DNA of 53,534 nt from Acidobacteriaceae bacterium (GTDB lineage: Bacteria > Acidobacteriota > Terriglobia > Terriglobales > Acidobacteriaceae), in assembly GCA_003140235.1 (NCBI GenBank), contig PLJN01000156.1:19456-72989 (forward strand), in the 5' to 3' direction. A program made the position numbers and the translations under genes. This document shows, one piece after another, positions 11,178 to 15,615 of this stretch. The first letter of the stretch is position 1. Each line of letters opens with the position of its first letter. The notes under the pieces are model-generated. The model had not been told where the DNA came from. It made no database searches and saw only the letters and a list, made by a program, of their open reading frames with translations.

Positions 11178-11648
11178 GTGCGGGCAGGAATTGTGAACCA
11201 ACGCGTGACAAACCGGGTTTCATATTCGCTGGACTCGACGCTGGAAAGCGTCAACACGGCTGAGCAGAAGGCCTTTGAAGTGGCCGCCAAAGCGGGCTTC
11301 GGCGAAGACGAGCAGCACCATATCGGGATGGCCGTGCGGGAAGCAGCGGTGAATGCCGTGTTACACGGCAACGCCTATGATCCCAAGAAGAAATTTCTGG
11401 TGGCGTATGAGACGACCGCGAAGTCACTGGTCATTACCATTACCGACCAGGGCAGCGGGCTCGATCTCAATACCGTTCCCGACCCGCTCGCGCCGGACAA
11501 TTTGATGAAGCAAACCGGGCGGGGTATTTTCCTGATTCGTTCGTTTATGGACGAAGTCCGGATCAGAAACACCGACCCGGGCACAGAGATAACATTAATC
11601 AAACACGTAGGCGGCAACGCCGCGAATGCCAAGGAGGAAACACAGTGA
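11178..11648 (+). CDS. Anti-sigma regulatory factor (RsbW/SpoIIAB-like serine kinase)
   Basis: A protein of about 156 residues with a GHKL ATPase fold. The N box is REAAVNAVLHGNAYD (about residues 54-68), the G1 box is ITDQGSGLD (about 92-100), and the G2 region is GRGIFLIRSFMDEV (about 116-129). Such kinases bind a sigma factor or a partner and phosphorylate the STAS protein encoded next to them. GTG codons at 11178 and 11193 are possible starts; CAGGAA precedes the second at good spacing. The stop overlaps the GTG start of the STAS gene. The target sigma factor is not in the window. Confidence 0.85.
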   Translation: MRAGIVNQRVTNRVSYSLDSTLESVNTAEQKAFEVAAKAGFGEDEQHHIGMAVREAAVNAVLHGNAYDPKKKFLVAYETTAKSLVITITDQGSGLDLNTVPDPLAPDNLMKQTGRGIFLIRSFMDEVRIRNTDPGTEITLIKHVGGNAANAKEETQ

Positions 11649-11992
11649 GCATGAAAGCTAGCAACCGGCAGGTGGATGGGATCACCATCGTAGACCTGAG
11701 TGGCCGTATAACCCTTGGGGAAGGCAGCGTAGTGTTGCGCGATACCATCCGCGACTTGGTCAGCAAGGGCAACATTAAGATCCTGCTGAATCTCGGCGAC
11801 GTGACGTACATTGACAGCTCCGGCATTGGAGAACTGGTCAGCGCCTTCACTACCGTCCGCAACCAGAATGGCGAGTTGAAGCTCCTGAAACTCACCAAGA
11901 AGGTCCACGACCTGCTCCAGATCACCAAGCTGTACACCGTCTTTGATATCAAGGACGACGAAGCAGTTGCGATCCAGTCCTTCGCGAAATAG
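11645..11992 (+). CDS. Anti-anti-sigma factor (STAS domain)
   Basis: A 115-residue STAS protein. The phosphorylated serine is expected in the VTYIDSSGIGELVSA motif (about residues 55-69). It forms a partner-switching pair with the preceding kinase: unphosphorylated STAS protein sequesters the kinase. The GTG at 11645 overlaps the kinase TGA (GTGA); an ATG at 11651 is an alternative, with GGAGG about 11-15 nt upstream of it. A strong GC hairpin follows the stop. Confidence 0.88.
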   Translation: MSMKASNRQVDGITIVDLSGRITLGEGSVVLRDTIRDLVSKGNIKILLNLGDVTYIDSSGIGELVSAFTTVRNQNGELKLLKLTKKVHDLLQITKLYTVFDIKDDEAVAIQSFAK

Positions 11993-12002
11993 TTTCCTGA
12001 CT

Positions 12003-12024
12003 CAGGCGGGAGTATTCCCGCCTG
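12003..12024 (+). terminator. Hairpin after the anti-sigma operon
   Basis: A perfect 9-bp stem, CAGGCGGGA-gtat-TCCCGCCTG, starts 11 bp after the STAS stop. Only a weak T-rich stretch follows, so it may be an incomplete intrinsic terminator or an mRNA-stabilising hairpin. Confidence 0.5.
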
Positions 12025-12037
12025 CACGCGTCTTTGT

Positions 12038-12586
12038 ATGCCCAGAATCTCACGCCTTGACCGCTCCCAGGTAACGGATGAAGTGGCGCATATCTACGAC
12101 CACTTCATGAAAGTGCGCGGCAACATCCCTAACATGTTCCGCACCGTGGCCCATCGCCCGGAGATTCTCACGACAATGATTGCGCATTTCCGCGCGGTCC
12201 TGGAGACCGGCACGGTCCCGGTCAAACTGAAAGAACTGGTGATCGTCCGCACCAGCCAGATCAACTCCTGCCAGTATTGACTCGCGTCACACACCGTCTT
12301 GGCAAGACGGCTGGGATGGACCGACGACCAACTCCAAAATCTCGCGGACTTTGAAAAGCGCTCCGACTTTACCGATCAGGAAAAAATCGCTCTCCGGCTG
12401 GCAGAACACGTCACCCACGACGCCCGCACTGTGGACGACCAGCTATGGATCGAACTGCGCCGGCACTTTGATGAAGGCGAGATCGTCGAGCTGCTCTGCT
12501 CCATCGGACTCTTCAACTATTTCAATCGCTTCAATGACGCGCTGACCATGGAGCCGACTGCCTCTCCAGCCCCCGAACGGCAGTGA
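12038..12586 (+). CDS. AhpD/CMD-family selenoprotein (in-frame TGA read as Sec)
   Basis: One reading frame runs from the ATG at 12038 to the TGA at 12586 and is broken only by a TGA at 12278-12280. The family's redox motif is normally C-x-x-C-x-x-x-H. Here the residues are NSCQY, then TGA, then LASHTVLARRLG: Cys78, the TGA at 81 and His85. The TGA therefore falls exactly on the resolving or catalytic cysteine. Residues after it continue the carboxymuconolactone-decarboxylase/AhpD fold without interruption to 182. A SECIS-like hairpin follows the TGA at bacterial spacing. Reading it as selenocysteine gives a CxxU peroxidase-type protein; the alternative is a single TGC-to-TGA nonsense mutation. 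The selenocysteine genes are not in the window. Confidence 0.75.
12278..12310 (+). promoter_or_regulatory. Putative bacterial SECIS element
   Basis: Downstream of the in-frame TGA (12278-12280), CCGTCTT (12294-12300) pairs perfectly with AAGACGG (12304-12310) around a GGC loop. The loop begins 20 nt after the TGA and starts with G, which matches the known bacterial SECIS rules (short stem, G among the first loop bases, about 16-25 nt from the UGA). The stem lies inside coding sequence, as bacterial SECIS elements do. Confidence 0.65.
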
Positions 12587-13231: not shown

Positions 13232-14404
13232 CTAATTAGAAACCTTCTTCCGCAGTTCCGCCAGTGGATATTTCGTACCGCGCCAAGTGACGGTTCCGTC
13301 TCGCACCGCTACAAACGCCGAGCGCAGCACAGCAAACATAAATAGCAACGCGCCGATGGGGCAGGTAATAAAGAAAAGCGGAGCAACCCTGGTATAGCGC
13401 GAAGTCATGGAATAACTGATCGCAATCATGGTGACGGCGAAGGCGAAACCTGCGCGTGCCCAGCCCGGCGCCAGCGCCAGACCCACAAACGGCCACACGC
13501 ACAGAAAACCCACAACGCAGCAGGCAGCGACCGCCAGACTGACCCGGAACTTGAGAAGCGCAAACAGGTTCTTCTCCAGGTTCCGGACCACTCCAAAAGC
13601 GCCGACGGCCCAGCGCAAAGCAACGAGGTCCGGGCCAAAGACGATATCTGAATGCAATCCCGTTTGTTTTACAATCTCTCCCCACCTGAGGTCATCCACA
13701 ACTTCCAGGCGCAGCTTCTCGTACGTTCCAATCGCTACATAGGCTGAGCGGCGCATCAGATTAAACGCGCCCACGCCGACGTAGTCTCGCGCTTTCGGAT
13801 CGCGCACCTTCCATGGCCGCAGAATGAAGTTGGCCATCACCTGCGGGAAAGAGATGATGATCCGCTCACCCACGGTCCGAAACAGCATGGTAGGAAAAAG
13901 AGCCAGATGGTCAACGCTGGTCTTTGTGGCGTAATGCAGCGCCCGGCGCAGCGAGTCAGGATGAAAAATGCAATCGGCATCAGTAAACAACACCCACTCA
14001 CTGGTGCTCTGCTGCGCGCCCAGCCACATGGCATGGACTTTGCCCAGCCATCCGGGCGGCAATTCACGGATGTGGACGACCCGCAATCTGCCGGAAGATT
14101 CTGGCTCCGCAGCAACCCGGTCCATGATTTCGCCCGTGCGATCTGTGGAGCGGTCATCAACCGCGACGACTTCATAGCCCGGATAATTCAGTTGGAGAAG
14201 AGATCGCAACGCCGGTTCAATATCCGCTTCCTCATTGCGCGCCGGCACAACAATGCTGAGTGACGGCAACGCCGCGTTTTCCTCCGGCTCCCATTCCGGT
14301 TGGGTGATATCTGCAATTTCATGGAGATGAAGCAGTGCCTGCAACACAGGCACAAACCAGATCAACGCGAGCAGCAATCCGGAAATCCAATAAAACCAGA
14401 TCAT
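13232..14404 (-). CDS. Membrane glycosyltransferase, family 2
   Basis: A 390-residue protein with an N-terminal membrane helix (about 1-25), a GT-A domain and two or three C-terminal helices (about 285-360). The donor-site motifs are SIVVPARNEEADIE (about 49-62), VAVDDRSTDRTG (about 79-90) and FTDADCIF (about 139-146). The layout resembles hopene-associated HpnB-like and ceramide-type glycosyltransferases, so the acceptor is probably a lipid, by inference. Its ATG overlaps the stop of the upstream MFS gene (14401-14404), so the two are cotranscribed. Confidence 0.8.
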   Translation of the reverse strand: MIWFYWISGLLLALIWFVPVLQALLHLHEIADITQPEWEPEENAALPSLSIVVPARNEEADIEPALRSLLQLNYPGYEVVAVDDRSTDRTGEIMDRVAAEPESSGRLRVVHIRELPPGWLGKVHAMWLGAQQSTSEWVLFTDADCIFHPDSLRRALHYATKTSVDHLALFPTMLFRTVGERIIISFPQVMANFILRPWKVRDPKARDYVGVGAFNLMRRSAYVAIGTYEKLRLEVVDDLRWGEIVKQTGLHSDIVFGPDLVALRWAVGAFGVVRNLEKNLFALLKFRVSLAVAACCVVGFLCVWPFVGLALAPGWARAGFAFAVTMIAISYSMTSRYTRVAPLFFITCPIGALLFMFAVLRSAFVAVRDGTVTWRGTKYPLAELRKKVSN

Positions 14405-15615
14405 GTTTGAGTCTTGAATCGAGGCGCGAATTTTGCGCCGTAGATGAGAATACCCCCCGACAGCGCCGCGGCAACAAACGCCGCCCAGAACCCTTTTTGC
14501 AGAGACCCCGTCTTATTCGAGATTGTGCCGATCAAGGTCGGCGAAAATGCGTCTCCCAGCAAGTGAATGATAAAGATATTCACGGCCAGCGCTGTGGAGC
14601 GGATCTTCGGACCCACGGAATTTACCAGCGCGGCATTCGTCGGCGCTGTACCGATGAGTAGAAGAAAGATGGCCGTAAACATCGCGGCATACATCGGCTT
14701 CCCGGTCACATAGACCGTCATCACCATCAGCGGAACGGCCACAAACATGGCGATGCCGGGGAAAGTGTAATAAGCGCCGAAGTAGCGTTTGAGCAGACGG
14801 TCGCCAATCCAGCCACCGATCAGCGTGGCCACAATGCCGTTGAAGCCGGCCATGCCGCCGAAAATGAGACCCGCCCTGTCCAGGGGAACGTGACGCACGC
14901 GCCAAAGAAATGTTGGGATCCATTGCAGCAGTCCGCCCGCGGCAAATGTGTACATGGCCATCCCGAGGGTCGCGGTAAGAAACGCTCCGTTTTTTGCGAG
15001 ACCAAGGACGGTCGAACGCGCCGGGGAAGAGTCCTCGCCTTCAGACAATCCTCGGGGCGGCTCAGGCAGAAACCAAAGCACGATCGCCAGCACAAAGCCG
15101 GGAACGCCGGCGATCATGAAAGGCACGCGCCATCCCCAGTGCTGCCCGGCAACACCTCCCAGGATCAGCCCCAACGCGTTGCCCAGGGGCAGTCCTAAAA
15201 AGAAAATGGAAAGCATGCGCCCGCGGCGCTCAATGGGAAACGAGTCCGCAATCAGCGTGGGAGCAATGGCGGCATAACTTGCTTCCCCGATCCCCACGAT
15301 GGTGTGCCGGAACATCAGCTCGCCAAACGTATGCGTCACCCAGGTGAGCAGAGTAAATCCGCTCCAGATCAGTATGCCGACAGCCATGATCTTCTTGCGG
15401 GAAAAGCGGTCTCCCATCCACCCTACACAAGGGGCCGCAACCATGTATGCAATGAAAAACGCAAACGTCAGCAGCCCATAGTCCCTGTCACTGCGGGGAA
15501 ACTCCTTCTGGATCAGCGGCTGAACACCGAACAAAACGCCGCGATCAACGTAGTTGAGAATGTTCAGTCCGGTCAGCACCGCCAGCAAAAGGCGAGGATA
15601 AAGTTTCGGCGGCAT
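14401..15615 (-). CDS. MFS transporter, Spinster-like
   Basis: A 404-residue major facilitator with about 12 hydrophobic segments. The loop 2-3 signature GWMGDRFSRKKIM occurs at about residues 65-77 and is partly repeated as GGWIGDRLLKRYFG in the second half. An early NYVDRG motif in TM1 is typical of the Spinster (Spns-like) branch, which exports lipids such as sphingosine-1-phosphate in animals. In this genome the overlapping glycosyltransferase gene suggests a shared lipid-related substrate, which is inference. A TATAAT on the minus strand (15634-15629) would give a leader of only a few nucleotides. Confidence 0.82.
   Translation of the reverse strand: MPPKLYPRLLLAVLTGLNILNYVDRGVLFGVQPLIQKEFPRSDRDYGLLTFAFFIAYMVAAPCVGWMGDRFSRKKIMAVGILIWSGFTLLTWVTHTFGELMFRHTIVGIGEASYAAIAPTLIADSFPIERRGRMLSIFFLGLPLGNALGLILGGVAGQHWGWRVPFMIAGVPGFVLAIVLWFLPEPPRGLSEGEDSSPARSTVLGLAKNGAFLTATLGMAMYTFAAGGLLQWIPTFLWRVRHVPLDRAGLIFGGMAGFNGIVATLIGGWIGDRLLKRYFGAYYTFPGIAMFVAVPLMVMTVYVTGKPMYAAMFTAIFLLLIGTAPTNAALVNSVGPKIRSTALAVNIFIIHLLGDAFSPTLIGTISNKTGSLQKGFWAAFVAAALSGGILIYGAKFAPRFKTQT

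Follow-up and report, generated by a model that had tools for sequence, protein, structure and literature searches.

AhpD-like selenoproteins were already described in 2005, when 27 sequences of COG2128 with a CXXU motif were reported from the Sargasso Sea (PMC1088965). The GOS sequences contain two groups, AhpD-like 1 and AhpD-like 2, with 299 and 70 sequences, respectively, both of them CxxU (PMC2398784), and a 2026 review gives CxxU for TIGR01926, NF041047, PF02627 and NF041238 alike (PMC13188914). An earlier note, made from the letters of the present sequence, had stated that AhpD-like selenoproteins were already described from environmental sequences, and these reports agree (PMC1088965, PMC2398784). 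The note had also counted the CxxU arrangement as novel. This cannot be maintained, since CxxU members of the AhpD-like group were published as early as 2005 and the arrangement is the usual one in the accounts cited here (PMC1088965, PMC2398784, PMC13188914). Concerning the host phylum, three selenoprotein families with four selenoproteins were reported for Acidobacteria in 2006 (PMC1794560), and three known selenoprotein genes for one acidobacterium in 2025 (PMC12013277). In those parts of the selenoprotein literature that were covered, we found no acidobacterial AhpD-like selenoprotein mentioned by name (PMC13188914, PMC2398784, PMC1794560, PMC1088965, PMC9312934, PMC12013277, PMC1242214).

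The gene studied here lies at 12038-12586 on the forward strand of the window, by which we mean the whole 53,534-nucleotide stretch that was analysed (G000:C110:19456-72989). With the AhpD-like selenoproteins of COG2128/YciW (TIGR01926), as they are described, it shares the AhpD core, the CxxU motif and a SECIS-like hairpin following the UGA. Against the TIGR01926 model itself (peroxidase-related enzyme) the window protein scored 79.7 bits, narrowly missing the cut-off of 81.8; a paralogue also stayed below it (81.2), whereas four orthologues scored singly passed (88.6-93.8). The top-scoring NCBIfam model was NF053654 (GroundWater_YciW, YciW-related (seleno)protein), aligned over residues 1-171. 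It represents a different subfamily: its cut-off is 310 bits, and the window protein reached 83. NF041238 (AhpD_rel_CFYUT), an AhpD-related model that is CxxU like the window protein according to the review (PMC13188914), gave 39.8 bits (cut-off 175) over residues 66-169 only, and NF041047 (GSU3128), AhpD-related and CxxU in the same source (PMC13188914), did not match the window protein. The nearest protein of solved structure by sequence was PA0269 from Pseudomonas aeruginosa (2o4d, 2ijc, 7xw1), with 34-35% identity over the core in the structure search and a chain that begins about 29 residues later. What is new is an acidobacterial subfamily lying below the cut-offs of both matched (seleno)protein models, TIGR01926 and NF053654.

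The primary structure of the gene was then examined. A single frame runs from the ATG at 12038 through 80 codons to a TGA at 12278-12280, and continues for 101 codons to the gene's own terminator, also TGA, at 12584-12586. With the internal TGA translated as U, the product has 182 residues containing SCQYU-LASH, that is, C78-Q-Y-U81 followed by H85, with the codons of Cys78 and His85 at 12269-12271 and 12290-12292. The Pfam CMD domain (PF02627; residues 41-123, 55.3 bits, cut-off 23) extends across the TGA, and the AhpD core model TIGR00778 was matched with 50.9 bits (cut-off 27.8). The earlier note had proposed a frame open on both sides of one TGA, the same protein family on both sides, and a TGA at the position where the family has Cys, in C-Q-Y-U followed by a conserved His. 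All of these features were found as proposed, Cys occupying the position in 49 of 79 orthologues. Taken alone, open flanks are weak evidence, because 29 TGAs in the window, that of Sec81 among them, are preceded by at least 80 open codons and followed by at least 95. It is homology across the TGA, together with conservation among relatives, that carries the case for a selenoprotein.

Relatives were collected in two ways. A named collection contained 175 loci encoding a relative, and the best 80 of these, Acidobacteriota to judge by their names, were kept. Codon 81 was TGA in 13 of them and TGC or TGT in the other 67, which comprised 16 CxxC and 51 TxxC loci; Cys78 was present at all 13 TGA loci of the best 80. 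For the second set, 200 genomes were sampled evenly across the order. Of these, 85 had a match at E ≤ 1e-30, and reading all 85 gave 95 genes, of which 79 with more than 50% identity were taken as orthologues and 16 as paralogues. The orthologues were CxxU in 30 cases, CxxC in 12 and TxxC in 37 (codon 81: TGA 30, Cys 49), and the paralogues CxxU in 5, CxxC in 8 and SxxA in 3 (TGA 5, Cys 8, Ala 3). As 34 of the 79 orthologues, including 7 of the 30 CxxU genes, are identical in DNA sequence to a named locus, the two sets are not independent. The note had suggested aligning homologues for Cys or Sec at this codon, and both were found; it had also asked whether other nonsense codons occur there, and neither TAA nor TAG was present in the 95 order genes or in the best 80 of the 175 named loci. 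The portion 3' of the TGA was conserved among relatives in a 33-row alignment. In a wider set of 396 genomes of the phylum, 46 had a match at E ≤ 1e-25; the 33 that were read of the 50 matches listed gave 17 new loci, 16 of them CxxU and one TxxC. A plasmid search with the window protein returned 908 records, every one below 60% identity.

We examined the region following the TGA for an element directing Sec insertion. A predicted bacterial SECIS hairpin, CCGTCTT-GGC-AAGACGG, occupies 12294-12310 of the forward strand. Its 7-bp stem (12294-12300 paired with 12304-12310) begins at the 14th nucleotide after the TGA and covers the codons for VLARR, and its GGC triloop (12301-12303) lies 20 nt from the TGA. 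Recomputing the positions reproduced the 7-bp hairpin, G-starting loop and spacings of 14 and 20 nt given earlier. Among the limits for bacterial SECIS elements stated in the review are a loop of 3-9 nt, an upper stem of 4-16 bp, a spacing of 16-37 nt from the UGA to the apical loop, G in the first two nucleotides of the loop, mostly as G[G|U], and a minimum free energy of at most -7.5 kcal/mol (PMC13188914). The hairpin lies within these limits in loop (3 nt), stem (7 bp) and spacing (20 nt), and GGC agrees with the rule on G. The isolated 17-mer, at -7.4 kcal/mol, falls just short of the -7.5 required; a 45-nt segment starting after the UGA folds with -15.3 kcal/mol. Taken by itself, the fold of this segment does not stand out (z -1.53) and is too weak as a single sequence, so that an alignment of relatives was needed. 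In 35 TGA rows (30 orthologues and 5 paralogues), 98.0% of the stem pair cells were formed, and six of the seven pairs displayed two-sided changes. Covariation was 0.441; shuffled alignments gave 0.207, none of the 500 reaching the observed value, and sliding the stem gave no more than 0.249. The number of further pair types in the same rows did not exceed the shuffles (8 versus 9.2). In the 49 Cys orthologue rows, only 25.6% of the cells were paired, which is not above the shuffled level, and folding of the alignment yielded no consensus structure. The hairpin is therefore kept by compensatory changes in the TGA rows and is absent from the Cys rows. Two TGA rows were exceptional: in G064 the stem is missing in register, with an alternative hairpin CTGCC-AGTT-GGCAG recognizable by eye, and in G151 the loop is GTT and the gene falls into two matches. 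Rfam gave no match over the element. The view that these features fit bacterial Sec insertion has thus held up, with covariation of the hairpin and agreement with the published limits except for the energy of the 17-mer (-7.4 versus -7.5).

The note had named selA, selB, selD and tRNA-Sec as genes to search for in the genome, and all four were present in the host assembly (4.9 Mb, 204 contigs, 89% complete). A tRNA-Sec was detected with 73.1 bits (gathering threshold 47) and was called SeC with anticodon tca by ARAGORN, and SelB was matched with 390 bits. SelA was encoded twice, with nearly equal scores of 541.9 bits (G000:C53:94025-95398) and 540.3 bits (G000:C176:10380-11756); the pair may reflect either a duplicate or a foreign contig. 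SelD (374.5 bits; L017:1405-2454, reverse strand) itself carries a TGA, in frame at codon 21 (AAGU), followed by a hairpin with the loop GGT at nt 21-23. Two other SelD-like matches were observed in this genome. One, with 222.6 bits and no internal stop, lies at G000:C157:1197-2114; the other, a weak match of 21 bits at G000:C53:73316-74194, is inside a 770-residue frame adjoining SelB, which, as guessed from its length, may be a fusion of an oxidoreductase and a SelD-related protein. The host also harbours a second AhpD-like CxxU gene, 34% identical to the first (L196:2995-3522, reverse strand, corresponding to G000:C90 near 13906-14412), which has its own hairpin after the TGA with a GGC loop at nt 21-23. 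A covariance model built from the element (R1), whose training set included both AhpD-like genes, recovered the window gene with 72.9 bits and the second gene with 48.6 bits on searching the host genome. The other six matches all had E of at least 2.45, one being the reverse strand of the window hairpin, and no further selenoprotein was found with this model.

The distribution of the machinery across the order was compared with codon 81. Many tRNA-Sec matches scored 49-58 bits; we counted only those of at least 63 bits, a threshold chosen after the match list had been viewed and because the lower matches in the host (51.2 and 45.3 bits) were tRNAs for Ile and Ser by ARAGORN. SelB (E ≤ 1e-60) was detected in 88 and tRNA-Sec in 84 of the 200 genomes. 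Among the 30 genomes with a CxxU orthologue, SelB was present in 28, tRNA-Sec in 25 and at least one of the two in 29, versus 11 of the 49 with a Cys orthologue (5 CxxC, 6 TxxC). The Fisher p value for this difference, 2e-11, is not a true probability because the genomes are related. Both SelB and tRNA-Sec were present in all five genomes with CxxU paralogues. The CxxU genomes departing from the pattern were G023 (73% complete), which has the TGA and a match to neither, G126, with tRNA-Sec and no SelB, and G189, G101, G188 and G015, in which SelB was matched and no tRNA-Sec reached 63 bits. Across the phylum set, SelB exceeded the cut-off in 17 of 17 genomes with new loci and in 31 of the 33 genomes given, and was matched in 33 of 33 at E ≤ 1e-40; as it occurs in all 33 with or without a TGA, it does not discriminate there. 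As a separate observation, the three SxxA paralogues (L181, L187 and L194) have lost both redox residues, and their genomes retain SelB and tRNA-Sec.

Taken on the evidence of sequence, 12038-12586 is almost certainly a selenoprotein gene, and its best explanation is, with hardly less assurance, that UGA 12278 would be read as Sec81 of an AhpD-like protein by means of SelB, tRNA-Sec and the stem-loop. As for the product, we regard an AhpD-fold peroxidase or oxidoreductase of the thiol/selenol type as most likely. An AlphaFold2 model from 24 rows (pLDDT 91.7) is helical throughout, and its top matches in the PDB were the AhpD-core proteins 2prr, 7xw1, 2pfx, 3c1l and 2ijc, with Bmp8 and 6k40 close behind; AhpD from M. 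tuberculosis (1knc, 1lw1), on which the mechanism is modelled, was a weak match (E 0.2-0.3, TM 0.47-0.58). The relay described for AhpD consists of Glu118, Cys130, His132, Cys133 and His137, and that of PA0269 of Glu36, Cys48, Tyr50, Cys51 and His55 (PMC3141380). The corresponding residues of the window protein are Glu66, Cys78, Tyr80, Sec81 and His85, so that every position of the Glu-Cys-(His/Tyr)-Cys-His relay, as described for AhpD, appears to be filled; the Glu-Cys-Tyr-Cys-His site of PA0269, as described there, is shared, with Sec in place of its second Cys. Glu66, Tyr80 and His85 are invariant in the 33-row alignment, and in the best 80 of the 175 named loci they are found in 79, 79 and 80, respectively.

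These features suggest a mechanism. SelB and Sec-tRNA(Sec), helped by the stem-loop at 12294-12310, would read UGA 12278 and insert Sec as residue 81 of an AhpD-like protein composed of helices. The selenolate, activated through His85 and Glu66, would attack the substrate, either a hydroperoxide or some other oxidised or halogenated compound, and Cys78 would resolve the intermediate as a selenenyl-sulphide. We infer the attacking role of Sec, the resolving role of Cys78 and a hydroperoxide as substrate from these positions, and consider peroxidase or thiol-oxidoreductase chemistry reasonably likely for the predicted protein. Less likely, and still the strongest of the alternatives, is a selenoprotein that is no peroxidase: a reductive dehalogenase, some other thiol oxidoreductase, or an adaptor reducing another peroxidase in the way AhpD serves AhpC. 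The same fold class includes a debrominase, Bmp8 (6ohi, 6ohj; debrominase according to the entry titles, C82A variant), which stands beside the AhpD proteins among the nearest solved folds and shares the fold over about 175 residues (TM 0.79-0.85), and AhpD has been described as an adaptor of AhpC (PMC3141380). On the other hand, Bmp8 is only 20% identical to the window protein, and no gene for AhpC or halogen chemistry was recognized with Pfam in the nine neighbouring frames scanned.

The peroxidase or oxidoreductase could also act together with the two genes upstream, an HATPase_c_2 (RsbW-like) gene at 11178-11648 and a STAS-domain gene at 11645-11992, both on the forward strand and both conserved neighbours whose functional link to it is doubtful. 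A role as the redox input of a partner-switching regulator formed with this kinase and STAS protein would agree with the distribution of STAS: a STAS gene in the same orientation precedes 24 of the 30 order CxxU orthologues and 13 of the 13 named CxxU loci (best 80 of 175; 7 genes are in both), as against 0 of 67 TxxC and 4 of 19 CxxC loci for which 1 kb or more of upstream sequence was available. The search covered 1.5 kb upstream, or 3 kb for the paralogue in the host's own genome. Against such a role, no STAS gene was found upstream of the remaining 6 of 30 order orthologues, 16 of 16 phylum CxxU loci and 5 of 5 CxxU paralogues. By identity, it was present at 37 of the 51 CxxU loci that reach 50% (named 13/13, order 24/30, phylum 0/8; some genes are counted twice) and at 0 of 13 of lower identity. 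A joint function is set back further because STAS was matched in 192 of the 200 order genomes, as against 30 with a CxxU orthologue, and an 8-bp inverted repeat (12004-12023) intervenes between the STAS and AhpD-like genes. The repeat reads AGGCGGGA-GTAT-TCCCGCCT and ends 14 nt upstream of the ATG. We find the regulatory role improbable and read the RsbW/STAS context as an old arrangement of genes, mostly retained around the CxxU gene in this order, which is no proof of joint function.

Two explanations would dispense with selenium altogether. UGA might be decoded as Cys or Trp under a changed code, or be passed by leaky readthrough, and Cys is indeed the usual residue of relatives at codon 81; yet the gene's own terminator is TGA, the host has tRNA-Sec(tca), SelA, SelB and SelD, and a SECIS-type hairpin is conserved. 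We judge this very improbable, while some misreading of the UGA as Cys may occur. Slimmer still is the chance of a sequencing error or of a pseudogene, a Cys gene struck by a nonsense mutation, to which an assembly of 204 contigs at 89% completeness and the 29 TGAs with open flanks in the window might lend credit, for codon 81 is TGA in 30 of 79 order orthologues and 13 of the best 80 of 175 named loci (7 shared), the part 3' of it is conserved among relatives, and the hairpin, missing from Cys rows, shows covariation in TGA rows.

With UGA 12278 read as Sec81, the relatives form a series, CxxU, CxxC and TxxC, which is the second new feature of this acidobacterial group. In the 37 TxxC orthologues of the order (for example L114, L118 and L154), Thr replaces the partner cysteine, and many relatives without Sec machinery are also without that cysteine. 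Residue 154 of the window protein is Cys, and 21 of the 37 likewise have Cys in that column. TxxU is the redox motif of Sec peroxiredoxins as reported (PMC1088965, PMC2398784), so TxxC looks peroxiredoxin-like, a likeness of motif only. In a tree of 83 orthologue rows, restricted to sequences above 50% identity and omitting L176, L201 and L178, which were long or partial, the three labels require four changes. The best tree had two origins of TxxC; a single origin was not rejected (AU p 0.285), and a single clade of all Cys forms was weakly rejected (p 0.03), the tested groups having been defined after the motifs had been viewed. L128, a CxxC gene beside STAS in a genome with Sec machinery, was nested within CxxU. 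A quick tree of 110 rows carried long-branch warnings. Its paralogue outgroup did not fall on one side of a branch, with three rows on the wrong side, so that an ancestral CxxU, and the direction from Sec to Cys, can only be inferred. We tentatively suggest, as a scenario that may well prove wrong, that CxxU is ancestral, that at least two losses of Sec turned CxxU into CxxC, and that the partner Cys then became Thr, giving TxxC with the Glu/Tyr/His relay mostly kept. A (seleno)peroxidase with a resolving cysteine would in this way have turned into a one-cysteine enzyme in answer to the loss of selenium.

Selenoprotein genes are reported to be widely misannotated because UGA is taken as a stop (PMC1088965). 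Here, what began as a guess from one genome has become a well-supported acidobacterial selenoprotein family. Its CxxU, CxxC and TxxC orthologues constitute a natural experiment on what substitutes for selenocysteine after a lineage has lost it.
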